From contig NC_009663.1 of NCBI RefSeq assembly GCF_000010345.1, positions 1,550,001 through 1,614,000 of the forward strand: 64,000 bases of DNA, written 5' to 3'. A model generated the notes under the pieces. The model saw nothing but the letters and a program-made list of their open reading frames with translations, ran no database searches and was not told where the DNA came from. Below, in pieces: positions 26,038-64,000 of this stretch. Numbering within the stretch: position 1 is the stretch's first letter; each line of letters begins with the position of its first letter. The position numbers and the translations under genes are program-made. This stretch comes from Sulfurovum sp. NBC37-1. Lineage in GTDB: Bacteria > Campylobacterota > Campylobacteria > Campylobacterales > Sulfurovaceae.

Positions 26038-26346
26038 TCATTTTATGTAAACCTTGTACAAATTATACGGTATTTTCAATACTTCAATCATAGCATATTT
26101 TCTTGCCGTTTCATTCCTGTAGTAATGTTCCCTGTCCCACCACTTGACACCGCTTCCGGCAAAATGCAGAGTGATGGTTTTATCTCCCATAATAGTGTTC
26201 AAAAGACTGAAACGCCTGCTATGGGGTGGATCGGTCACGATCAAGGCACTTCTGTAGCCTCTCTCTTTCATGAATGCATGCAGGTAACGCACCTCATCTT
26301 TTATCGACCGCAGTTCAGGTGCATAAACAAAGGCAATATAATGTTT
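26038..26346 (-). pseudogene. Truncated YdcF/ElyC-like (DUF218) gene
   Basis: Only the C-terminal about 100 residues are left (YAPELRSIKDEVRYLHAFMKERGYRSALIVTDPPHS..., GSGVKWWDREHYYRNETA). They align with the intact protein at 30505-31110; the N-terminal half is missing, and an in-frame stop lies upstream. DNA of the GSGVKWWDREHYYRNETA block is nearly identical to the intact copy (about one difference in 55 bases), so the duplication is recent or maintained by conversion. An 84-aa product from a GTG is possible. Confidence 0.8.
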
Positions 26347-26356
26347 TTTTCAGCAT

Positions 26357-26977
26357 TTATTTTTCCCTAAAGGGCCGATAATGGCTTTCATCGGCCAGTG
26401 CAAGCATGGCTTTGTCCCCTCCACTATCTCCATATGCATAGATATAGTCATATTCATCAAGATCATAGATCTCTTTTATTCGTCGAACTTTTTCCTCTCC
26501 ATGACAGTTTTTTGTCGCAAATTTCCCCGTAAGCTTTCCATCTTTCATTTCCAGCTGCGTTGAAACAAGTGTAATGTCCTGTTTGTGACACCATGCTTCA
26601 AGCCAGCAGGCCATCGATGCCGACACGATCACAACCCTGTGTCCCTTTTCCTGGTGCCATCTGACCTTTTCCATGGCCTGCCTGCGAATAATGGAATCGA
26701 TTTGTTCCAACGAATACGCTTCGGCAAGTCTGGAAAACCGTTCGACATCCCATCCTTTGAAGAAACACCCTAACAACTTCTCTTTGGCTATATAGTTTGG
26801 AATGAGTTTTAGTGTATATGCCGTCAGCATTGGGCTTAGTTTCAGCAATCCCATGTAATAAGCCGGCTTGCCTACGGCAAACTGGATGAATTTAATGAGA
26901 CTGTCGTCGGTGGTAATGGTACCATCAAAATCAAAAAATGCTATTTGAATACTATTCTTCCTTCCATGCAGTTGCAA
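26357..26977 (-). CDS. HAD-IB phosphatase, probable polyprenyl-phosphoribose 5-phosphatase
   Basis: A 206-aa HAD hydrolase: motif I FFDFDGTIT (nucleophile and acid Asp), motif II VIVSAS, motif III/IV lysine and GDSGGDKAML. SerB-like cap. Position between the DprE1/DprE2/UbiA genes and glycosyltransferases points to dephosphorylation of polyprenyl-phosphate 5-phosphoribose, the step between UbiA and DprE1; this is an inference from context. No ATG is available in frame; the TTG at 26977 is used as the start, while GGAAGGAAG just upstream of residue 10 suggests a non-canonical start there. Confidence 0.78.
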   Translation of the reverse strand: MQLHGRKNSIQIAFFDFDGTITTDDSLIKFIQFAVGKPAYYMGLLKLSPMLTAYTLKLIPNYIAKEKLLGCFFKGWDVERFSRLAEAYSLEQIDSIIRRQAMEKVRWHQEKGHRVVIVSASMACWLEAWCHKQDITLVSTQLEMKDGKLTGKFATKNCHGEEKVRRIKEIYDLDEYDYIYAYGDSGGDKAMLALADESHYRPFREK

Positions 26978-27023
26978 CTTTCATTAACTTTTTAGATAAA
27001 AAAAACTTTTTTAGTTTTTAAGT

Positions 27024-27755
27024 TCAAATACTCATCCCCTTAAATTTCCACTCTGGAATAGCTTTGATAATCATCATAATGTATTTCCATATCCACTTCG
27101 TATAAAGTATATTCTTACCTTTTTGCTGTGCACTGAAGATATCCTGTGCCACTTCCTCTGGTTGAGCCGTCAACTTTTCAGGCAGGTCCAACTCTTCCGT
27201 CATCTTCGTCGCCACAAATCCGGGCTTGACGGTAAGCACCTGCACCTGAGTCTCATAAAGTCTGTTTCTTAACCCCGAAAGGTAAGCAGTAAGCGCTGCT
27301 TTGGCGGAGCCGTAGATGTAGTTACTCTTACGTCCACGATCGCCGGCAACGGACGAGATACCTACCATGAACCCGCTTCTTCTCTTTTCAAAGTCATCAG
27401 CAATAATATTAAACAGACTTACAACACCTGTATAGTTGGTGTCGACGATCTTCTTTGCTTCAGTGAAATCACTCTGAGCCTTCTGCTGGTCTCCAAGGTA
27501 GCCTACAGCCGAGATGACACCAAGAGGCTTTTCTTCAAGGTTCTCATAAAAAGCCTGATGGCTTTTGTAATCCAAAATATCCAACTCTACAAGATTTACA
27601 TCTCTTTGCGTTCTGGTAACGACATCTTGTGCGAAATCTGTCAGCTTTTCCACATCTCTTGCAGCAAGATACAGGTCATACCCATTCTTTGCATACTCCC
27701 TCGCACATGCTCTGGCAATATCACTCTTAGCACCCACTATCAATACATAACTCAT
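27024..27755 (-). CDS. dprE2: DprE2-like short-chain dehydrogenase
   Basis: A 243-aa SDR. N-terminal Rossmann loop VLIVGAKSDIARACAREYA, catalytic Ser in VGISSVAGDRGR and Y-x3-K in YIYGSAKAAL. Family match to decaprenyl-phosphoryl-2-keto-erythro-pentose reductase, which with DprE1 epimerises polyprenyl-phosphate ribose to arabinose. The ATG at 27755 follows GGGAG by 8 bases; the longer frame to 27776 starts inside a heptamer repeat and is not used. Downstream of dprE1 in one run. Confidence 0.87.
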   Translation of the reverse strand: MSYVLIVGAKSDIARACAREYAKNGYDLYLAARDVEKLTDFAQDVVTRTQRDVNLVELDILDYKSHQAFYENLEEKPLGVISAVGYLGDQQKAQSDFTEAKKIVDTNYTGVVSLFNIIADDFEKRRSGFMVGISSVAGDRGRKSNYIYGSAKAALTAYLSGLRNRLYETQVQVLTVKPGFVATKMTEELDLPEKLTAQPEEVAQDIFSAQQKGKNILYTKWIWKYIMMIIKAIPEWKFKGMSI

Positions 27756-27773
27756 ATTATATTCTCCCTCTTT

Positions 27774-27831
27774 CATTCAACATTAAACATTGCCCAACGG
27801 AAATGCCTTTAGGTGCAAAACTCAACATTAT
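27774..27831 (-). repeat. Heptamer-bounded repeat, intergenic copy A (type 2 core)
   Basis: AACATTAAACATT, then core GCCCAACGGAAATGCCTTTA + GGTGC, then AAAACTCAACATTATT. The core is the same as in the insert of rmlB at 56911-56957 (inverse orientation). Here it fills the 78-bp gap between the dprE1 and dprE2 genes. Confidence 0.75.
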
Positions 27832-27833
27832 TT

Positions 27834-29135
27834 TTATATTTCTACTCTTTTTGATTGTAACGACTGGAACTTACTGACCATCCCATTCTCTTTTCTAAAC
27901 TGCCTGAACTTTTCTATGTCGGCATAGCCCTGCTCGAAGGTATCTTTGGAGACCCTTGCATCTTTTGTGAGATAGATCCGGCCTTTGTATTTGAGTACAA
28001 TCTCGTCGAGATGATCGAGCAGTTCAAAGAGTCCCTTTTCTATTTTAAAGTCCAAAGCAAGACTGTAACCCTCCATAGGGAAAGAGAGCCAGTTTTCGTT
28101 GGCTTTTCCGTAGAGTTTGAGTACAGCAAGAAAGGAGCCTTTCCCCGAGTTTGAGATGGCTGTCAGTATCTCTTCAAGACCTTCATAGCTCGTCTCTTTT
28201 GGTAAAATGAACTGATACTGGGTAAAGCCGTTGTTACCGTAGATACGGTTCCAGTGTCCTATGGCATCGAGAGGGTAGAAAAAAGTATCTATGTCCACTG
28301 TCTGTATGGAGATTTTTTCTTTGACTTTACCATAGTAGAGCCAGTTGAAGGCTCTGACACTTAGATTATTAAGTGCGAAACTTGGAAAGTTGAAAGGGAT
28401 GCTCTTTTGGGGTTTGAGTCTGTAGTCCAGTTTGCCGTCATCTCTGAAATCTCCGACCATCAGCAGACATTTACCTACTTCATCCCCTTTGGCAAGACAG
28501 TCTATCCAGGCGACAGAGTACGGCATGTGGCTGTACTCCTCGAAGGCTTCGAAGGTCTCTTTGAGGTTTCTGGTCTTGATAGTGGTTTGGTTGATATATT
28601 GGGAATTGATACGCTTGAGGGTAAGCTTTGTTTCGAGGATGATACCCGTAAGCCCCTGACCTCCACAGGTCGCTTTCCACAGATCAGGTGTTTGTTCTTT
28701 GGTGCAGGTGACGACCTCTCCGTCTGCAAGCATAATGGTGAACTCTTTGACACACTTGGAGAAACACCCCTCTACATGATGGTTCTTCCCGTGTACGTCA
28801 CTGGCGATAGCGCCACCTACAGTGATGAGCTTGGTGCCAGGGGTAACTTTGAGAAACCAGCCTCTTGGGACAAAGTGTTCGAGGATCTCCGAGAGCAATA
28901 CACCGGCCTGTACATGCAGCAGGCCTGTTTTTTCATCGAAGTTTATGAAGTAGTCCTTCTGTCTGACATCGATGATATTCTCGCTCAAAGCACTGTCACC
29001 GTAACTTCTACCATTGCCATAAGGGATAATGCAATTCTGCTCAATGATGATTTTTCTGAGGGTTTGCTCTTTATCGAACTTGAAGTGTCGGCACTCTATC
29101 TGTGGGTACATGCCCCAGGCGGTACAGGGTTTCAT
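27834..29135 (-). CDS. dprE1: DprE1-like FAD oxidase (polyprenyl-phosphate ribose 2'-oxidase)
   Basis: A 433-aa protein. FAD-binding PCMH-type fold with PYGNGRSYGDSAL, VTPGTKLITVGGAIASDVHGKNHH and CGGQGLTGIILE; substrate domain at about 190-400 with FILPKET and LFELLDHLD. It should oxidise C2 of polyprenyl-phosphate ribose. The Cys that is the benzothiazinone target in Mycobacterium (in NICVDF) is replaced by Ala360 in YSLALDF. It overlaps the upstream GtrA gene by four bases (ATGA), consistent with an operon UbiA-GtrA-DprE1-DprE2-HAD. Confidence 0.9.
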   Translation of the reverse strand: MKPCTAWGMYPQIECRHFKFDKEQTLRKIIIEQNCIIPYGNGRSYGDSALSENIIDVRQKDYFINFDEKTGLLHVQAGVLLSEILEHFVPRGWFLKVTPGTKLITVGGAIASDVHGKNHHVEGCFSKCVKEFTIMLADGEVVTCTKEQTPDLWKATCGGQGLTGIILETKLTLKRINSQYINQTTIKTRNLKETFEAFEEYSHMPYSVAWIDCLAKGDEVGKCLLMVGDFRDDGKLDYRLKPQKSIPFNFPSFALNNLSVRAFNWLYYGKVKEKISIQTVDIDTFFYPLDAIGHWNRIYGNNGFTQYQFILPKETSYEGLEEILTAISNSGKGSFLAVLKLYGKANENWLSFPMEGYSLALDFKIEKGLFELLDHLDEIVLKYKGRIYLTKDARVSKDTFEQGYADIEKFRQFRKENGMVSKFQSLQSKRVEI

Positions 29136-29539
29136 ATGTTTACCTCTTCTTTGTGTATGAATACATACTTCTTGTCAAGGAAGTACTTAATAATGTAGCC
29201 GATAGTCAGTCCGATAATGGCACCGACGTATTTGGCATTGGGGTTGGGAACGAGGTAATAGAACGCCATCTCCGTTCCCCAGAAGATAATGGTCGTAAAC
29301 ACTCCCATGAAAGAGTAGAGGATGAACTTCTTCGCATCGTCTTTTTTATCTTTGGGGGTGTGGTAGAAAATCCATTTCTTGTCAAGGATGTATTTGGAGA
29401 CCAGTCCTGCCAGGGTTCCGACAAACATCGCCACATAGAGTGAACCGAAACCGCTGTAAGCCAAAAAGCTCAGCCACTGGAAGAAAAGGTTGACCAGTGT
29501 GGAGATGGCGGCGAAGATACTGTATTTAATAGCCAGCAT
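29132..29539 (-). CDS. GtrA-like four-helix membrane protein
   Basis: A 135-aa protein with four membrane helices (IKYSIFAAISTLVNLFFQWL, LYVAMFVGTLAGLVSKYILD, FILYSFMGVFTTIIFWGTE, YVGAIIGLTIGYIIKYFLDK). GtrA family; a GtrA-like protein (Rv3789) accompanies dprE1 in mycobacteria, where it is thought to act on arabinose lipid donors. The ATG at 29539 overlaps the UbiA stop (TGATG); the open frame runs farther upstream, but it would overlap UbiA. Confidence 0.88.
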   Translation of the reverse strand: MLAIKYSIFAAISTLVNLFFQWLSFLAYSGFGSLYVAMFVGTLAGLVSKYILDKKWIFYHTPKDKKDDAKKFILYSFMGVFTTIIFWGTEMAFYYLVPNPNAKYVGAIIGLTIGYIIKYFLDKKYVFIHKEEVNI

Positions 29540-30408
29540 CAGTAGAGTATCCAGGCAAAGGTACCGATCCACCCCAACAGGATCAACTGCATAAACCGGT
29601 CCTTGATGACGATTTTTGTAGGGGAACCACTGTCTTTGAGAACCAGAGCGATCTTCAGGTAGCGCATCACTCCCAGTATAACAAAAAAGGCTGTCAGGTA
29701 AAGATAGTCACTGTGAAATCTTGCGACCACTTCAGGGGAAGTCGTATAGATCGTATAGGCGACGATGACCACTGACGCCATGATCGCCATAGCCGTATCG
29801 AGGAACTGAAGGTTGTATCCGTCTATCACTTTACGCATCTTCTTGCCTGTATCCAGATAGATGAGCACATCATCCCTTCTTTTTGCCAGTGCCATGAAAA
29901 GTGCCAGCAAGAAGGTCATGATCACGATCCATTTGGAAAGCGCAATACCAGTAACTGTCGACCCTACAAAAATACGCAGCACAAAACCGATGGCAATGAT
30001 GTTCACGTCGACAATGGAAATGTGCTTAAGGGAAAAACTGTAGGCAATGTTCATAACGACATACGCTGCAAGAATGGCAGCGGCCTTAAGCGAGAGCAGT
30101 GCCATCATTAAAAAGCCCGATACAAAGAGTACGGACATGATCATCACCGCCTGGGACCTGCTGATCGCTCCGGATGCAAGTGGGCGCTCTTTCTTCCTGG
30201 GGTGTTGCCTGTCCTCTTCGATATCATGATAGTCATTGAGTACATACACAGCACTGGCGGTCAGGGAAAAAGCGATGAAGGCGATGATAGTATTGAAGAG
30301 TAACGCCGGCTCGGTGATCTTCATGGCGAAAAAAAGCGGGAGAAAGATGAAGAGGTTTTTGACGTACTGGTGGGGGCGTATGAGTTTTATTATATCGATC
30401 AATTTCAT
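29539..30408 (-). CDS. Polyprenyl-phosphate phosphoribosyltransferase (UbiA family)
   Basis: A 289-aa integral-membrane prenyl-type transferase. First Asp motif VLNDYHDIEEDRQHPRKKERPLASG, second DDVLIYLDTG; about eight membrane helices. The first motif with following HPRKKERPLASG is that of decaprenyl-phosphate 5-phosphoribosyltransferase (Rv3806c type), which joins PRPP to a polyprenyl phosphate. It is the first step of the D-arabinofuranose donor path encoded by the downstream genes. Confidence 0.9.
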   Translation of the reverse strand: MKLIDIIKLIRPHQYVKNLFIFLPLFFAMKITEPALLFNTIIAFIAFSLTASAVYVLNDYHDIEEDRQHPRKKERPLASGAISRSQAVMIMSVLFVSGFLMMALLSLKAAAILAAYVVMNIAYSFSLKHISIVDVNIIAIGFVLRIFVGSTVTGIALSKWIVIMTFLLALFMALAKRRDDVLIYLDTGKKMRKVIDGYNLQFLDTAMAIMASVVIVAYTIYTTSPEVVARFHSDYLYLTAFFVILGVMRYLKIALVLKDSGSPTKIVIKDRFMQLILLGWIGTFAWILY

Positions 30409-30504: not shown

Positions 30505-31110
30505 CTAATTGTCACAACAGAGCTTATACAGATTGTAGGGTATCTTCAACAGTTCGGTCAACGCATAGTGCCTTGCCGTTTCATTTCTGTAGTAATGTTC
30601 CCTGTCCCACCACTTGACACCGCTTCCTACATAATGCCACTGTAGTGCACTGTCTCCATAAACAGACAGTACCTGACTTAAAAAAGCAACACGTCCTAAA
30701 TGAGGAGGATCACTCACGATCAAAGCACTGCGATACCCCCGTGAAAGCATATAACGTTTAATAAACAATACTTCCTCCCGTGTCGATAAAAGCCCGGGAA
30801 CATGGCTATAGGGTATAGTAGTATATTTTTTCTCAAGCAGCCTTACACGAAAATCTTTATATCCGGCTCTCTTTCGCACGGGTGTTACATCATCTCCTGT
30901 CAAGACAAGCAAATGCTTCATGCTGTATCCTGCACGGTAAAGAGCAATGGCTTTATCGATCCTGTGATAATCTCCCCCACCCAGACAAATGATAATGTCT
31001 GACTCAACAGGCTTATCCGTAACGTCAAGCCATTTCCCAAGATTTGCAAATACTATACAAAAAAATACAAGCAGTACCAAGAGCAAAACCATACCTCTCT
31101 TTTTCATCAT
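30505..31110 (-). CDS. YdcF/SanA-like DUF218 membrane-anchored protein
   Basis: A 201-aa protein with one N-terminal membrane helix (MVLLLVLLVFFCIVFANLG) and a DUF218 fold: IIICLGGGDYHRIDKAIALYRAGY, STREEVLFIKRYMLSRGYRSALIVSD, GSGVKWWDREHYYRNE. The family occurs in envelope polysaccharide loci; the biochemical function is unknown. Two start ATGs in tandem (31110, 31107). A truncated duplicate lies at 26038, on the far side of the arabinose genes. Confidence 0.82.
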   Translation of the reverse strand: MMKKRGMVLLLVLLVFFCIVFANLGKWLDVTDKPVESDIIICLGGGDYHRIDKAIALYRAGYSMKHLLVLTGDDVTPVRKRAGYKDFRVRLLEKKYTTIPYSHVPGLLSTREEVLFIKRYMLSRGYRSALIVSDPPHLGRVAFLSQVLSVYGDSALQWHYVGSGVKWWDREHYYRNETARHYALTELLKIPYNLYKLCCDN

Positions 31111-31116
31111 ACTTTT

Positions 31117-32166
31117 TCAATTCATGAACAAGATATTCTGATAAGGCAGCCACATATATGCCCATTTGGCAAATCCAAGCCAGACAAAATGGACCAGCGC
31201 ATAATAAATTACGATCAAAAAAGTGGTCAGTTTTGGAGATACTTTTCCTTTCAAAAACAAAGGAAGACTTGCAAAAACAGCGATTTGCATGGGTACAAAA
31301 TAAAGTGACATCCTGTCGACTACTGTTGTTGCAAACGGTACCAAAAACAGCGCAGCAACTGAGCCAAATGCCATCAGAAGCCACAGTACGTATCCTTTTG
31401 GCCAGAATTGTTTCCATCTCTTGCGAAACCACAAAAAGAAAAATGCCGGTATAGCATTCATAATCACACGAATATAAGCACCCGAAGAATACATACCACT
31501 CTCTATATAAGATTTTACATATTGCTCTTCATAACCTGACATAAATGCAACATAGATCCCTACTCCCATAATTACAGCTGCCAAGGCTTTGAAATATTTT
31601 CCTTTTCCTCCCTGAAAAAGCCCAAAACCAAGCATCAGTACGGCAGTCTTATGAAATGCGGCTGCCAGTGCAATCAATATAATATATTTTATAAACTTAC
31701 GATCTATCAGTGCCGTGATCGCCCAAAGTGTCAAACCCAGTGCGATCCCCTGCCGCACATACCCCATAGCAACACCCAGTACCACATAGGCAAGCGTAAT
31801 GACCAATCCAAGCCAGGGGTTAGGCAGACGACGAAGGAAAACAACAAGGCCTGTCATAAAAAGAACAGCGGCTACCAAATTGATTATATGAATATCCCAT
31901 CCATTCTGATAGACCCAGACCTGAAGCAGCCAATAAGCCGGGTCACCGTGCTTAAGTGCATCCATGTAATTCATAGACGGCACATCCCGATTGAACATAG
32001 CAAGGTAATTGAACCAATCAGATCCCACCTCATGTCTCAAGCCAATGTAGAGTGTGTAAACGATCCATGTCGGTATCCAGACTAATAAACTCTTCCAGGG
32101 TTTTGATGTGGGCTGAAAAACCGCCATTAACGCAGGAAAAGTAAAAAGTATAATGTAGGGAAACAT
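31117..32166 (-). CDS. EpsG/Wzy-like polysaccharide polymerase
   Basis: A 349-aa polytopic membrane protein with about ten helices and a periplasmic loop RHEVGSDWFNYLAMF, the typical EpsG signature. This suggests polymerisation of a polyprenyl-linked repeat unit. The sole Wzy candidate of the locus. It ends 7 bases upstream of the YdcF-like start and follows the formyltransferase without a gap. Confidence 0.82.
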   Translation of the reverse strand: MFPYIILFTFPALMAVFQPTSKPWKSLLVWIPTWIVYTLYIGLRHEVGSDWFNYLAMFNRDVPSMNYMDALKHGDPAYWLLQVWVYQNGWDIHIINLVAAVLFMTGLVVFLRRLPNPWLGLVITLAYVVLGVAMGYVRQGIALGLTLWAITALIDRKFIKYIILIALAAAFHKTAVLMLGFGLFQGGKGKYFKALAAVIMGVGIYVAFMSGYEEQYVKSYIESGMYSSGAYIRVIMNAIPAFFFLWFRKRWKQFWPKGYVLWLLMAFGSVAALFLVPFATTVVDRMSLYFVPMQIAVFASLPLFLKGKVSPKLTTFLIVIYYALVHFVWLGFAKWAYMWLPYQNILFMN

Positions 32167-42394: not shown

Positions 42395-43690
42395 ATGACA
42401 TTATCCCCAAAAAACAGATGGAAATTTATTAACATAAAATCTATTCACGTTGGATTGGCTACCATTTTGTTCACACTGTTAAATTTGATGCTTCGCTGGC
42501 CCGGAAAATTAACTCCAGACAGTGCGAATCAGCTTCGGCAAGCCATTTCTGGTCATTATAGTGATGGAAATCCTCCAATCATGGCAATAATTTGGAGAGA
42601 GTTGCTGCCGATCACTGACCCTACTGTAGTTATGTTAGTGTTACAGACCACTTTGTTCTGGCTGGGGATAGGCCTCTTTGCCGCTGTTCTTGCCCAAAAA
42701 GATCACCATCGGGCTGCACTGGTCATGCTTATCAGCGGTTTCACCCCAATAGCGCTAATGTATACAGGGGTCATTTTGAAAGACTCACTTATGACATCTT
42801 TTTTTATCGCCGCTTTTGGTTTGGCTGCATGGAAAGATGTGCGGTTAAGGTCTGTAGGACTACTGCTCGGAGCGACAGGAATGCTCACTCGCCTTAATGC
42901 CGTTTTTGCTTTCCCCTCATTACTTTTCCTTGCACTAAGACTGAAACTGTCACTCTTTAAGTCTCTAATCTATGCACTCATCATTTCGATTGCACTTATT
43001 CCATTATCTCAATGGATAAACCATGATATCTTTGGTGCAGAACGAGCTGGTCTGGAGAGATCCCTCCAGATATATGATCTTGCAGGTATCGCCTATTTTT
43101 CAGGTGACACTTCCGTACTGCCGGTCGACATCACTAATCTATCTGAGTGCTACACACCTTATTATTGGGACACATTGGGTGCTGCACGCTGTGACTATAC
43201 CTTTGGCAAGTTGGACAACAGCATCACACGTGAGTGGATCACAGGTATTATCACACATCCACTGGCCTACATGCAGCACCGACTTTCCCACTTCAATTAT
43301 GAGACATTTTTTCTCGTACCACCCGTACAACAATGTGTTGAAGCGCCTGAAGCGCATGATTGTCCGCGAAGCTTATTGTCCGACTTTGTAAGCAAAAACG
43401 GTCTGCTTTGGCCCGTAGCATGGTTGACTTTGGGGATTGTCATGTTATTGTCGGGACTTGGCGACATTCCTCGTGCTTTGACTATTTCTGCTCTCATGTA
43501 TGGCTTCGCTTATTTAATTATAGGTGTTGCCTCACAGTTCCGGTATTATTACTGGACAGAAATTGCTATACAAACGGCATTGATCTTTCAGATAGCTACT
43601 GCAGGATTCCCAAAGTGGCGGATAGCTGCTTTGTCAGTACTCGCAATTTGGATTATGGGATATCTTTGGCGGATCTCATACTTATTTTAA
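42395..43690 (+). CDS. GT-C-type polytopic membrane glycosyltransferase (gtrC-like role)
   Basis: A 431-aa protein with about ten membrane helices. After TM1 comes a periplasmic loop LMLRWPGKLTPDSANQLRQAI, like the acidic loop of GT-C enzymes, then NPPIMAIIWRELL. Soluble Cys-containing loops (SECYTPYYWDTLGAARC) sit between helices. It opens a plus-strand set with GT2, DUF2304 and GtrA genes, so it may place a side-chain sugar from a polyprenyl-phosphate donor. Exact family not certain. Confidence 0.68.
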   Translation: MTLSPKNRWKFINIKSIHVGLATILFTLLNLMLRWPGKLTPDSANQLRQAISGHYSDGNPPIMAIIWRELLPITDPTVVMLVLQTTLFWLGIGLFAAVLAQKDHHRAALVMLISGFTPIALMYTGVILKDSLMTSFFIAAFGLAAWKDVRLRSVGLLLGATGMLTRLNAVFAFPSLLFLALRLKLSLFKSLIYALIISIALIPLSQWINHDIFGAERAGLERSLQIYDLAGIAYFSGDTSVLPVDITNLSECYTPYYWDTLGAARCDYTFGKLDNSITREWITGIITHPLAYMQHRLSHFNYETFFLVPPVQQCVEAPEAHDCPRSLLSDFVSKNGLLWPVAWLTLGIVMLLSGLGDIPRALTISALMYGFAYLIIGVASQFRYYYWTEIAIQTALIFQIATAGFPKWRIAALSVLAIWIMGYLWRISYLF

Positions 43691-43711
43691 ATAGGAAAGA
43701 TTATATAAAAA

Positions 43712-44428
43712 ATGAATAACATACTTATTATTGTTCCAGCATATAATGAAGAAAAAAATATAGAAAACGTGATAAAATCACTCATAAAAAATAAGCTTTC
43801 TGTAGATATAATTGTCATTAATGATGGATCAATTGATAATACCAGCGAAAAAGCAAAAAAAACAGGAGATGCAACAGTTATTGATTTGCCTGGGAATGTT
43901 GGAATTGGCGGTGCTGTACAAACAGGTTTTAAATTTGCGTATAGAAATAATTATGATATAGCTATACAATTTGATGGAGATGGTCAACACAACTCAAGTC
44001 AAATAAACAAAATAATACAGCCTATTATCGAGAATACAGCAGATTGTGTCATAGGCTCAAGATTTATAGGAGACAAGAGGGGTTTTCAATCAACCAAATC
44101 AAGAAGAATTGGAATAAAAATATTAGAATTTATAAACTCTATCTTAATAAAACAAAGAATTACAGATAATACATCAGGATTTAGAGCTTACAATCGCAAT
44201 ATCATTGAACTATTTGCCAAAGATTATCCATCGGACTTCCCTGAGCCAGAAGCTGTAATAATACTTGGAAAACAAGGATACAGAATCTTGGAAGTCCCTG
44301 TTATGATGAATGAACGCACAGCTGGTAATTCATCAATAAGTGGCTTTAAATCTGCTTATTATATGATAAAAGTAATTTTATCAATATTTATGACTTATCT
44401 TGGAATACAAGGAGATAAAAAATGTTGA
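43712..44428 (+). CDS. Polyprenyl-phosphate glycosyltransferase (GtrB/DPM1-like GT2)
   Basis: A 238-aa GT2: IIVPAYNEEKNIENVIKSL, VINDGSIDNT, QFDGDGQH (DxD-like metal site), GSRFIGDKRGF, and DNTSGFRAYNR. No C-terminal membrane anchor. It should load a sugar on a polyprenyl phosphate. Strongly AT-rich compared with the flanks. It overlaps the DUF2304 gene by 7 bases. Confidence 0.88.
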   Translation: MNNILIIVPAYNEEKNIENVIKSLIKNKLSVDIIVINDGSIDNTSEKAKKTGDATVIDLPGNVGIGGAVQTGFKFAYRNNYDIAIQFDGDGQHNSSQINKIIQPIIENTADCVIGSRFIGDKRGFQSTKSRRIGIKILEFINSILIKQRITDNTSGFRAYNRNIIELFAKDYPSDFPEPEAVIILGKQGYRILEVPVMMNERTAGNSSISGFKSAYYMIKVILSIFMTYLGIQGDKKC

Positions 44429-44769
44429 AAATTCAAATAGCTTCTTTTTTGTTTAGTACCTTTATACTTTATTTTATATTTAAAATGGTTAGAAAGAAAA
44501 AAATCTCGGAAGAATATTCCATATTGTGGTTTTTTATAGGAATAATTTTTCTTTTTCTGTCTATATTTCCCAAAACAATAGATATTATGGGAATGATCTT
44601 CGGAATTTCTTATGCACCTTCACTGCTAATACTTATTATCCTTGCTTTTATATTATCTATGTTAATCCATTTTTCGGTAGTATTAAGTAGATTGTCTCGG
44701 CAAAATAAAGAATTGATTCAAGAAGTGGGACTTCTTAAATATGAGATCGAAAATATTAAAAATTTATAA
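44422..44769 (+). CDS. DUF2304 small membrane protein
   Basis: A 115-aa protein with three membrane helices and a C-terminal coiled coil (SRQNKELIQEVGLLKYEIEN). DUF2304 proteins are regular companions of GtrB-like transferases; the role is unknown. It overlaps the GT2 and GtrA genes at both ends. Confidence 0.82.
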   Translation: MLKIQIASFLFSTFILYFIFKMVRKKKISEEYSILWFFIGIIFLFLSIFPKTIDIMGMIFGISYAPSLLILIILAFILSMLIHFSVVLSRLSRQNKELIQEVGLLKYEIENIKNL

Positions 44770-45136
44770 TATTCAATTTTTAAAATATGGAATTGTCGGA
44801 GTCATATCTGTTGTTATAGATTATTTTCTGTTATATCTGTCATATAGTCATTTTGGTTTAAGTTCTTCAGTATCTATCAGTATTGGTTTTTGGGGGAGCA
44901 CTATACTGAACTTTTTAATGCATCGCTTTTACACATTTTCGGAAACTACAAATAGTAATCATTTTATTGTGATTATTAAATATATTTTATTGATTATTGG
45001 TTCTTATTTTATAACATTAATAATGATTGAAAAGCTACTTGAATATGGCTTAAATATTTATTTTGCAAAACTTATCTCTTTATTGATAGTATATGTATAT
45101 GGTTATATTATTGGGAAAAAAATTGTATTCATATGA
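44741..45136 (+). CDS. GtrA-like flippase
   Basis: A 131-aa protein with four membrane helices (FLKYGIVGVISVVIDYFLLYL, SISIGFWGSTILNFLMHRFY...). GtrA family, thought to flip polyprenyl-linked sugars. Last gene of the rightward AT-rich set; the convergent glycosyltransferase gene begins its end 75 bp away. Confidence 0.87.
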   Translation: MRSKILKIYNIQFLKYGIVGVISVVIDYFLLYLSYSHFGLSSSVSISIGFWGSTILNFLMHRFYTFSETTNSNHFIVIIKYILLIIGSYFITLIMIEKLLEYGLNIYFAKLISLLIVYVYGYIIGKKIVFI

Positions 45137-50173: not shown

Positions 50174-51625
50174 TTACCCCACTTTTTTTCTTCCTATCAT
50201 TTCCAGACCTGTCTCAATAAAATCACGATTAAATAAAACATTTAAAGCAAGTACAGCCATACCCATTGTGACAGCAACCAAACTGACATGTACATACATA
50301 TTTTCAATATTGAATAAAAGACTGATTCCATAAGAAAATGATCCTGCAAGCGCGGAGACCAGCAAAGGTTTTAAAATTTGCCAAAAGTACTCTTTAAACC
50401 CAGCACCGCATAAAGGTTTTACCATGTAGTACCATCCAGGAAAAGAGAAAAATATGCCTGCGGCTACCAGACTGTATGCTACTCCGGAAACACCCCAAAA
50501 ACTTCCTGTGTAAATGACCAGTGGCATGGCAAGAAACATGGCAAAAGTCCAATAGAACCCAAGGTCTGCCCGCCCTCTTGCCAGCTGCAGAGAGCCTATG
50601 GGGTTTCCTGTGGAACGAAGTGCTCCATACACAGACAGTATCTCCAAAAGAATGATGGCATCTCTCCATTTTTCACCAAAAAGAAGCAGAATGACAGGTT
50701 CAGCTAAAATAGCGATCAGCAGATACACCGGAAAATTAATCGAGGAAAGATAGTTGATTGTTTTAAGATAGATCGATTTAAGTCTCGGAATATCATCCTG
50801 TACTTTTGCCATAACTGGAAAGGTCACTTTGGTAATAACGGGATTAATGATCTGGGCAGGTCTCATGGAGAGGTTCTTTGCAATCGTATAGACACCCAGT
50901 ACCTCAACGCCCAGTAGTTTTCCTATGAGTATGACATCAAACTGTGAATTGACATAGTTCAGGCTGCGTTCACCCATTTGGAACATTCCAAAGGAGATCA
51001 TGGGGGTAATGCTTTTATGTCTGTATATCAGAGACGGTCTATGCTCTTTGATACCTATAAGCGTATTTAGCACAGTTGTAGCGACACTTCTGCCCAATGT
51101 GGCATAGACAAGAGCATACACCCCGAAATTTTCCATTGCCAGGATAACGGCTACCAAAAAGGCAAACACATTGGTGGCTATGCTGATCTTGGCCATAACA
51201 TCGAACCGAAGCAGCTTTTGCAATAATATACCATACTGGTTTCCTATGCCTGTCACAACAAATGTCACTGCAAGGATCTTCATGAGCGGTACCAGTTCTT
51301 TTTCATGGTAAAAGGAAGCAATGTATGGTGACAGAATATAGATGCAAGAAAATAAAAAAATGCCCGATGCCACATTAAGCCAATACAAACTGGAAAGTTG
51401 TTCATGGCTTATGTCCTGTTTATGAATGATCGACGCACTGATACCCATATCCATGAACAGCGCACTGAAACCGATGATGACAGAAACGATGGCCATCAGA
51501 CCAAAATCGGAAGCATCAAGATAGTGTGCGAGTATGATTAACTGAAGTAACTGAACCACTGCGACAATAACGGAGGAGAGACTTGTCCACTTGACACCGC
51601 TTAATGTTTCTTTTCTCAGTGACAT
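50174..51625 (-). CDS. wzx: Oligosaccharide flippase (Wzx, MOP superfamily)
   Basis: A 483-aa protein with 12-14 membrane helices. N-terminal GVKWTSLSSVIVAVVQLLQLIILAHYL and DFGLMAIVSVIIGF are the classical polysaccharide-transporter start. It would flip the polyprenyl-linked repeat unit to the periplasm for the EpsG/Wzy polymerase. Follows the sugar-donor genes in the same direction. Confidence 0.9.
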   Translation of the reverse strand: MSLRKETLSGVKWTSLSSVIVAVVQLLQLIILAHYLDASDFGLMAIVSVIIGFSALFMDMGISASIIHKQDISHEQLSSLYWLNVASGIFLFSCIYILSPYIASFYHEKELVPLMKILAVTFVVTGIGNQYGILLQKLLRFDVMAKISIATNVFAFLVAVILAMENFGVYALVYATLGRSVATTVLNTLIGIKEHRPSLIYRHKSITPMISFGMFQMGERSLNYVNSQFDVILIGKLLGVEVLGVYTIAKNLSMRPAQIINPVITKVTFPVMAKVQDDIPRLKSIYLKTINYLSSINFPVYLLIAILAEPVILLLFGEKWRDAIILLEILSVYGALRSTGNPIGSLQLARGRADLGFYWTFAMFLAMPLVIYTGSFWGVSGVAYSLVAAGIFFSFPGWYYMVKPLCGAGFKEYFWQILKPLLVSALAGSFSYGISLLFNIENMYVHVSLVAVTMGMAVLALNVLFNRDFIETGLEMIGRKKVG

Positions 51626-60198: not shown

Positions 60199-61203
60199 TC
60201 AGCAGTCTCTCTTCTGCCTTTTGATCATAGTGCTGAGTATCAGATAGAGCATAACAGTGTTTAAAATAAAAAGAACAAGCAGATACCCTTCATCGATATT
60301 TTTATCCAATTGTAATCCTGTCATCGAATAGATCACCTGAAGAACAATAAGAAAAAATACCGTCTTCTTTGTATTGTTTGAAAAAAACTGATGTAAAATA
60401 TGGTGAAAATGACATTTATCTGCAGCAAAAGCTGAATGTCCATGCATTTTTCTCCTTACCAGTATGATCATTACATCCATGTTGGGTATTGCTGCAAGGA
60501 AAAGAATACTGACAGCCGGGATATAGGCTAATGCTTTGACAGATAAAACAGCGATCACAAAACCGAGTACCAGAGAACCGCTGTCACCCATGAATATAGA
60601 GGCAGGATTCCAGTTAAAAAGAAGAAATGCAGACAGTGCGGCAATGAAGGCTAAAGAAATACAGGTAATAAATGTATCATCATGCATATACCCTACAGAA
60701 AAGAGTGATGTGAAGATCACTATACTGATTCCCGCTGCCAAGCCATCAAGGCCGTCTATGAGATTGAGGGCATTGGTAAAACCTACTACTGCCAGCGCAG
60801 TGAAGGGTAAAGCCAACCATCCCAACTGCAGATGCCATCCAAAAAAAACACCAATATCATCAATGACTATGTTATCAAAATAGATCAATATCGTAGCAAG
60901 TATGATCACAATGAATTTCGTATTGGGGGAGGTATCTCTATGGTCATCGAGAAAACCTACGATAAGAACAAGAAAAATCGCTATAAAGGTCCAAAAGTAC
61001 TCAGTAACAACAGAAAAACAGATAAAAGGGAGTAGCAGCCATACTGCCATAGTGAAACCGACACCCCCACCTCTGGGGATCACATCGTTATGGCTGCTTC
61101 TTATGTTGGGTATGTCTACAAGGCCTATTCTGGGAGAATAATGCTTCATACCCCATACGAACAGGACACTGACAAAGAATATCAGTAAAAATTCTACTGT
61201 CAT
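60199..61203 (-). CDS. Polyprenyl-phosphate HexNAc-1-phosphate transferase (WecA/WbpL type)
   Basis: A 334-aa protein with about ten helices. Motifs: VPRGGG-like VIPRGGGVGF, VGFLDDHRDTSPNTKF (DD), GFTNALNLIDGLDGLAAG (N-x-DG), FMGDSGSL, and HSAFAADKCHFHH (His motif). It starts assembly by moving GlcNAc-1-P (or similar) onto undecaprenyl phosphate. Begins 9 bases from the stop of the Wza-like gene. Confidence 0.9.
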   Translation of the reverse strand: MTVEFLLIFFVSVLFVWGMKHYSPRIGLVDIPNIRSSHNDVIPRGGGVGFTMAVWLLLPFICFSVVTEYFWTFIAIFLVLIVGFLDDHRDTSPNTKFIVIILATILIYFDNIVIDDIGVFFGWHLQLGWLALPFTALAVVGFTNALNLIDGLDGLAAGISIVIFTSLFSVGYMHDDTFITCISLAFIAALSAFLLFNWNPASIFMGDSGSLVLGFVIAVLSVKALAYIPAVSILFLAAIPNMDVMIILVRRKMHGHSAFAADKCHFHHILHQFFSNNTKKTVFFLIVLQVIYSMTGLQLDKNIDEGYLLVLFILNTVMLYLILSTMIKRQKRDC

Positions 61204-62819: not shown

Positions 62820-64000
62820 TTAATCCTTGTCATCCTCATAATATCCGTAGCCGTAGCCATAGCCATAGCCATAGCCATAGCCATAGCCGTAACCATGCTG
62901 ATCTCTCTTGACATCATTGAGGACAATACTCAATCCGTGTATCTCTTTTAAAGTTGAAAGCTGTTGAATATTCTTGAGAAAACCTCTTTTTGAATGTCCC
63001 GCACGTAACACATAGAGGCTGGTATCTGCAAGATGCATCAATGTTCTTGCATCTGTCACCAGCCCTATGGGAGGGGTATCAAGAATGATCACATCATAGA
63101 CTTCCCTAAGCTTTTCAATAACTTTTTCCATAAGAACTCCCTGTATCAGTTCACTGGGGTTGGGAGGAATAGGGCCGGAGGTGATTACATCGAGATTGGG
63201 ATATTCAGTCTTTTGAATGATGCTTCCCAGGGAAGCAGTTTTCGAAAGTAACGAACTCATACCCTTCACATTCTGGATCCCGAATTTTTCATGCAGTGTC
63301 GGTTTTCGCATATCAAGATTCAAAATGATCGTTTTCTTCCCTGCAAGGCTCATGATCGCCGCAAGATTGATACAGATCGTTGTCTTGCCTTCTCCACTGA
63401 TCGTAGAAGTAACCGCTATAACATGAGATTTCTGCCCTGTATACATAAATTGCAAATTGGTCCGTATATTTCGGAAAGATTCGGCAAGAGACGATTTTGG
63501 TTTCAGTATGACTTTCAATTTATCAGAATCTTTTTTCATATGGGGAATAATCCCCAGCAAAGGAATATCCAAATGATCGACAATATCATCTTCATTCTGC
63601 AGTCTGTCGTCAAAGTAGTAACGTAAAAAGGCAACAACAAGTCCCAGCACCAGTCCCAGGACCACACCTATCAATACGATAAGCATACGTTTCGGCTTGA
63701 TAGGAGCATGGGGCACTAAAGCATAATCGATAACCCTGTTCTTGCTCACGGTGGATGCTTTGACGATAGCGGTGGAAGAACGTTTTTCAAGCAAATAGGA
63801 GTAAATTTTTTCATTGACAGCAAACTTACGCTGCAACTGTCCGTACATTCTCTCATCTGCAGGAATTACGTTTAACTCTTTTTGGTACCTGGCAATCGAT
63901 TTTTGTAAAAGAGAATGCTTTTCCTTCAGGTTTGTTCTTAGGTTTGCAATAGTGGTTATAATGATATTTTTAAGCTCTGAGATCTGTTTTCTCAGCTTAA
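62820..64000 (-). CDS. Wzc-like chain-length regulator and tyrosine kinase (3' part; gene runs off the window)
   Basis: At least 393 residues on the minus strand; the frame is open to the window's right edge. Coiled-coil region with ELNVIPADERMYGQLQRKF, TM2 (MLIVLIGVVLGLVLGLVVAFL), then BY-kinase: Walker A STISGEGKTTICINLA, Walker A' LNLDMRKP, Walker B VIILDTPP. The tail is a perfect (GY)9-like run followed by EDDKD: the tyrosine cluster is coded by a 6-bp microsatellite. Kinase and CpsB phosphatase control polymer length. Confidence 0.93.
   Translation of the reverse strand, partial: KLRKQISELKNIIITTIANLRTNLKEKHSLLQKSIARYQKELNVIPADERMYGQLQRKFAVNEKIYSYLLEKRSSTAIVKASTVSKNRVIDYALVPHAPIKPKRMLIVLIGVVLGLVLGLVVAFLRYYFDDRLQNEDDIVDHLDIPLLGIIPHMKKDSDKLKVILKPKSSLAESFRNIRTNLQFMYTGQKSHVIAVTSTISGEGKTTICINLAAIMSLAGKKTIILNLDMRKPTLHEKFGIQNVKGMSSLLSKTASLGSIIQKTEYPNLDVITSGPIPPNPSELIQGVLMEKVIEKLREVYDVIILDTPPIGLVTDARTLMHLADTSLYVLRAGHSKRGFLKNIQQLSTLKEIHGLSIVLNDVKRDQHGYGYGYGYGYGYGYGYGYYEDDKD
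62845..62895 (-). repeat. 6-bp microsatellite coding the Gly-Tyr tail of the kinase
   Basis: Plus strand CCATAG repeated with CCGTAG variants, coding about nine Gly-Tyr pairs. Slippage in 6-bp steps would change the number of phosphorylatable tyrosines without shifting the frame. Confidence 0.9.

Follow-up and report, generated by a model that had tools for sequence, protein, structure and literature searches.

The stretch of DNA analysed here, referred to as the window, comprises 64,000 nucleotides (positions 1550001-1614000) of the single 2,562,277-base contig of Sulfurovum sp. NBC37-1. On its minus strand, read leftward from 30408 to 26357, a cassette of five genes encodes a UbiA-family transferase, a GtrA-family membrane protein, a DprE1-like oxidase, a DprE2-like reductase and a phosphatase of the HAD family. 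We give a probability of about 0.8 to the reading that these genes produce polyprenyl-phosphate beta-D-arabinofuranose and export it for the extracytoplasmic glycosylation of a surface glycan, which would extend the polyprenyl-phosphate arabinose pathway to Campylobacterota of the chemolithotrophic type. The pathway type is already published; what is found here is a layout split over two complementary loci of one genome. None of the papers searched links DprE1 and Campylobacterota.

In the proposed pathway, UbiA would move 5-phosphoribose from phosphoribosyl pyrophosphate onto a polyprenyl phosphate, probably that of undecaprenol, and the HAD phosphatase would take off the 5-phosphate, leaving a ribosyl lipid. 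DprE1 would oxidise C2 of the ribofuranose to a 2-keto sugar, DprE2 would reduce this sugar to the arabino epimer, and GtrA would flip the lipid-linked arabinose. A glycosyltransferase of the GT-C type, encoded outside the window locus, would then add the D-arabinofuranose (D-Araf) to the surface glycan. The UbiA and HAD steps have been proved on a polyprenyl phosphate analogue for a Citrobacter fusion protein, and DprE1/DprE2 homologues accompany Araf-containing glycans in the surveyed cases (Kelly et al. 2024, PMC11127046).

Genes of the cassette and their relatives

The original prediction described the leftward order UbiA-GtrA-DprE1-DprE2-HAD with overlaps of 1 and 4 bases, and the open reading frames between 30408 and 26357 confirm it. 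The UbiA gene (30408-29539) and the GtrA gene (29539-29132) share 1 base (TGATG), while GtrA and the DprE1 gene (29135-27834) share 4 bases (ATGA), and through these overlaps GtrA is translationally coupled to both UbiA and DprE1. The DprE2 gene ends at 27024; its preferred start is 27755, with a further in-frame ATG upstream at 27776, and a gap of 46 bases separates it from the HAD gene (26977-26357). None of the five frames is interrupted and all are under constraint, as given by a ratio of nonsynonymous to synonymous substitution rates (dN/dS) near 0.06 for UbiA, DprE1 and DprE2 and by an excess of third-position differences for HAD.

The UbiA-family protein, a predicted polyprenyl-phosphate 5-phosphoribosyltransferase (PPPRS) of the Rv3806c kind, exceeds the cut-offs of two NCBIfam equivalog models for decaprenyl-phosphate phosphoribosyltransferase (NF008977, 242.9 vs 234; NF008978, 213.7 vs 207). 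Its top PDB match is the mycobacterial enzyme of the same function (8j8j, E 2e-41), and the NDxxDxxxD motif is conserved. The GtrA protein matches PF04138 and NF037976 (171 bits, cut-off 50); by family membership, it would act as the flippase for the lipid-linked pentofuranose.

The third protein is a putative polyprenyl-phosphoryl-ribose 2-oxidase. Mycobacterial DprE1 stands alone among its PDB matches at E 1e-67 to 1e-70 (best 3e-70), the next ones being other FAD oxidases, from E 1e-8. It is 36% identical to DprE1 of Mycobacterium tuberculosis across 390 aligned positions, with the equivalents of Y60, H132, K134, Q334, Q336, K367 and K418 conserved, N385 changed to Ser and C387 to Ala. C387 of the mycobacterial enzyme is the target of the benzothiazinones, and the window protein is a DprE1 without this drug-target cysteine. 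Its partner, a predicted 2-keto-erythro-pentofuranose reductase of the short-chain dehydrogenase/reductase (SDR) family, passes NF005489 (PRK07102; 378 bits, cut-off 267), carries the YxxxK motif and has DprE2 of M. tuberculosis as top PDB match (21gq_C, E 7e-31). A DprE1 with its catalytic residues and a DprE2-type SDR partner would place the cassette in the D-Araf branch of the epimerases. The identities that the original prediction gave to the genes, and its reading of them as a D-Araf pathway, are well supported.

The accompanying claim that D-Araf is rare outside Actinobacteria was wrong at the gene level. In a scan with one genome per species, at least 555 stretches encode relatives of the cassette, among them stretches from Sulfurovum, Sulfurimonas, Arcobacter, Methylococcaceae, Desulfobacterota, Bacteroidota, Pseudomonas, Vibrio and others, and such systems have been called widespread among Gram-negative bacteria (Kelly et al. 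2024, PMC11127046). Occurrence of DprE1 is patchy, with 16 of the 175 Sulfurovaceae genomes and 19 of 397 genomes of the phylum.

Gene order was compared in the best 80 of the at least 555 stretches together with the two loci of the Sulfurovum genome itself (n=82); many of these loci end at contig ends, so the counts are lower bounds. The order UbiA-GtrA-DprE1-DprE2 is kept in most of the best 80 loci across several phyla and is therefore not due to chance, and the DprE1/DprE2 pair stands together in nearly all compared loci. The commonest full layout, by reading of the layouts, is UbiA-GtrA-DprE1-DprE2-GT-C-HAD (at least 28 loci), and HAD directly follows DprE2, with no GT-C between them, in at least 11 loci, the window included. 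The GT-C slot is highly variable and holds many mutually non-matching families, many of them unrecognised by Pfam. Three loci (L049, L051, L091) have two extra genes between UbiA and DprE1, which by eye encode a NAD-dependent sugar epimerase (313 aa) and a FAD/NAD flavoprotein (~430 aa).

The cassette resembles the three-component pentofuranose systems of Citrobacter youngae O1/O2, which consist of a UbiA-type PPPRS, a HAD phosphatase, an optional epimerase, a flippase and a GT-C, lie in an O-antigen/polysaccharide locus and add the sugar outside the cytoplasm (Kelly et al. 2024, PMC11127046). A PPPRS, a linked HAD and a flippase are predicted in Sulfurovum as well, but the HAD is free-standing instead of fused, the flippase is GtrA instead of a MATE protein, the part of the epimerase is taken by the DprE1/DprE2 pair, and the locus is without a GT-C. 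With the mycobacterial decaprenyl-phosphate arabinose pathway (Rv3806c, Rv3807c, Rv3790, Rv3791, Rv3789) the cassette shares the predicted chemistry, homologous UbiA, DprE1 and DprE2 and a small GtrA/SMR-like membrane protein, whereas the gene order is another, the lipid is probably undecaprenyl, and the HAD belongs to a different family from Rv3807c. The cassette thus offers testable enzymes for a step that an unrelated phosphatase carries out in mycobacteria.

The free-standing HAD phosphatase

The HAD-IB protein (TIGR01490, 136 bits, cut-off 98), in which the motifs DxD, S, K and GDxxxD are invariant, is probably the polyprenyl-phosphoryl-5-phosphoribose phosphatase. It had been put forward as a candidate for this step, and both synteny and co-occurrence have strengthened the case. 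The HAD gene adjoins that of DprE1, on the same strand and within 4.5 kb, in 39 of the 82 loci; in four loci without an adjacent HAD, UbiA is a protein of 475-509 aa with a fused N-terminal HAD domain. Among the Sulfurovaceae genomes (n=175), HAD homologues (E <=1e-30) occur in 12 and DprE1 in 16, with both in 10, a co-occurrence with a Fisher p of 8.6e-11, not corrected for shared ancestry. The HAD gene is unlinked to DprE1 in several genomes, lying on another contig in G055, G056, G061 and G062 and 28 kb away in G057, and therefore the co-occurrence is not based on adjacency alone. This supports a 5-phosphatase role for free-standing HADs of this subfamily.

Unlinked HAD genes adjoin GT-C genes in G055, G056 and G057. 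The GT-C of G055 is a 43%-identical homologue of the Sulfurovum GT-C encoded in a second locus (see below). The genes of G057 (G057:C72; L143:6661-8439) and G056 (G056:C247; L144:7572-8921), which overlap or adjoin that of HAD, encode homologues of the arabinofuranosyltransferase AftA: the G057 protein matches PF12250 (AftA_N) with 51 bits, over the cut-off, and has mycobacterial AftA as its sole PDB match (8if8, E 4e-9), and the G056 protein, from a partial gene, matches below the cut-off. AftA_N is present in 3 of the 175 family genomes, all of a single genus and each with DprE1 and HAD; among 14 control genomes it was found in Corynebacterium only. AftA-like arabinofuranosyltransferases occur, by these matches, outside Actinobacteria, and this context together with the co-occurrence supports the phosphatase role of HAD and a D-Araf product.

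A second donor set, a candidate transferase and alternative readings

A second UbiA-GtrA-DprE1-DprE2 set, followed by a GT-C gene, is located at 335178-340185 of the contig, in a locus that includes an ABC exporter. Its proteins are 76% (UbiA), 83% (GtrA), 78% (DprE1) and 82% (DprE2) identical to those of the window. This second locus is without a HAD, and the rest of the genome encodes no close homologue of the one in the window; if HAD is the phosphatase, the second set therefore needs the window locus, and the single HAD would serve both donor sets. In a DprE1 tree (quick search, with the Shimodaira-Hasegawa-like approximate likelihood ratio test as the only support measure) the two copies cluster with different relatives (97 and 98%), and a recent tandem or dispersed duplication was therefore rejected as the source of the two sets.

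The original prediction had called the pathway complete and proposed looking for an Araf transferase in the genome. Completeness holds only for the making and flipping of the donor, and the transferase is the part that the window cassette does not supply. The best candidate is the GT-C of the second set at 338.5-340.2 kb, a protein of 560 aa (G000:C1:338512-340185; L003:16506-18188) that is the only PMT_2 protein over the cut-off in the genome. The genome was searched for GT-C proteins with two Pfam families and, in addition, with a small number of single proteins as queries. It gave no AftA_N match in the Sulfurovum genome, and hence no AftA-type transferase of the kind that builds mycobacterial cell-wall arabinan, with Emb families and PAP2-like phosphatases lying outside that search. 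A search of the Sulfurovum genome for the GT-C encoded after DprE2 in the nearest relative, made without a positive control, returned no homologue. In the AlphaFold model of the PMT_2 protein (predicted local distance difference test, pLDDT, 48 overall) the membrane part is too poor for judging the fold; the C-terminal beta domain, in blocks mostly of pLDDT 76-89, resembles carbohydrate-binding modules and BcsB. A carbohydrate-binding module is also known from a GT136 enzyme and from Emb and AftD proteins (Kelly et al. 2024, PMC11127046).

Separate loci for donor and GT-C have a precedent, because in the pilin arabinosylation of Pseudomonas paraeruginosa PA7 the D-Araf donor genes PSPA7_6245-6251 lie apart from tfpW, the gene of the GT-C TfpW (PMC12369383). 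The acceptor in PA7 is the type IV pilin, while the Sulfurovum genes are part of a polysaccharide locus; as a further difference, the candidate GT-C belongs to PMT_2 and has a carbohydrate-binding-like domain at its C-terminus. A further-reaching scenario, which we regard as rather doubtful, would have two interdependent D-Araf donor cassettes of separate ancestry share one phosphatase and one GT-C between two surface glycans, with the AftA-type transferases of relatives building true arabinan chains in the same Gram-negative pathway.

Several observations weigh against a D-Araf pathway based on this cassette. The window cassette contains no GT-C: the position that one usually takes, after DprE2 and before HAD, is vacant, and a search for a GT-C remnant met a gap of only 46 bases. 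The HAD frame has no in-frame ATG. Its relatives start with an ATG at the very position of an ATT in the window (26950-26948), 6 bases past AGGAAG, a good ribosome-binding site, so the true start is probably this ATT at 26950 or an upstream TTG at 26977. HAD is under purifying selection despite the missing ATG, as its differences from the homologue in L024 at codon positions 1/2/3 are 53/41/117. It is only distantly like the HAD domains fused to UbiA (hhalign E 0.003, probability 11%), and given this weak direct profile comparison no descent between the two is claimed. Such a HAD is lacking in 6 of the family genomes with DprE1, four of which are at least 99% complete (G039, G045, G048, G099), so another phosphatase must act there. 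Lastly, DprE1 reaches 378 bits (E 6e-113) with NF053785, below the cut-off of 500, and DprE2 reaches 176 bits with the DprE2 model NF053786, below that of 250. Distant orthologues should indeed score under these curated mycobacterial cut-offs, and we thus infer the substrate specificity of the pair, which is beyond proof by sequence.

The window cassette could be a decaying or redundant copy, with only the second locus functional and HAD perhaps still used. The empty GT-C slot, the absent ATG, the DUF218 genes on either side, one complete and one truncated, and the retention of a second set agree with such decay; with five frames intact and constrained, and with HAD as the sole copy in the genome, needed by the second set if it is the phosphatase, we consider it unlikely.

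It is likewise improbable that the cassette has a transferase of its own in the surrounding locus, for instance the membrane protein encoded at 42395-43690, and that the genome holds two independent Araf systems. Because the families in the GT-C slot vary and many go unrecognised by Pfam, an unrecognised transferase could be present, and the window is a locus of the Wzx/Wzy type. The gene at 42395-43690, however, is on the opposite strand, beside GtrB- and GtrA-like genes that would supply a different donor; homologues occur in 0 of the 174 other family genomes and thus in none that bears the cassette, and its AlphaFold model (pLDDT 46) was unusable.

Production of a lipid-linked pentofuranose other than D-Araf, by retention of ribofuranose or formation of another epimer through an altered DprE1/DprE2 specificity, would suit the scores under the curated cut-offs, the changes at N385 and C387 and the report that an epimerase alone can switch ribofuranose to xylofuranose (Kelly et al., PMC11127046), but is very unlikely in view of the constant pairing of DprE1 with DprE2 in nearly all compared loci, the conservation of most mapped substrate-pocket and catalytic DprE1 residues, the AftA homologues adjoining the same HAD in relatives and the use of a different epimerase for xylofuranose and of DprE1/DprE2 homologues for Araf (Kelly et al., PMC11127046).

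The surrounding polysaccharide locus

The proposed D-Araf cassette sits in a surface-polysaccharide locus of the Wzx/Wzy type, with export and kinase genes. Upstream of it on the minus strand are an intact gene for a DUF218 (YdcF-like) protein (30505-31110, PF02698) and one for an EpsG-family, Wzy-like polymerase (31117-32166, PF14897, E 8e-52); a Wzx-like flippase and a WecA-like initiator are encoded at 50174-51625 and 60199-61203. Directly downstream of HAD, also on the minus strand, lies the C-terminal part of a second DUF218 gene (26041-26356), a single open frame lacking the N-terminal half; across 115 bp it matches the 3' end of that intact gene with 84% identity. The cassette is thus bracketed by direct repeats of part of the DUF218 gene, which suggests insertion or recombination.

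On the plus strand, the orphan multi-spanning membrane protein at 42395-43690, which has no Pfam or NCBIfam match and is not assigned to the cassette, is followed by a GtrB-like GT2 glycosyltransferase (43712-44428) and a GtrA protein (44741-45136). This set (42395-45136) looks like a separate modification cassette of the hexose type. Rfam returned no RNA within positions 20000-46000 of the window. The tyrosine-kinase-like chain-length protein has a C-terminal run of Gly-Tyr repeats, encoded at 62820-62890 (GYGYGYGYGYGYGYGYGYYEDD), and a REP-associated, RAYT-like transposase was recognised by eye at the window's left end (1639-2172).

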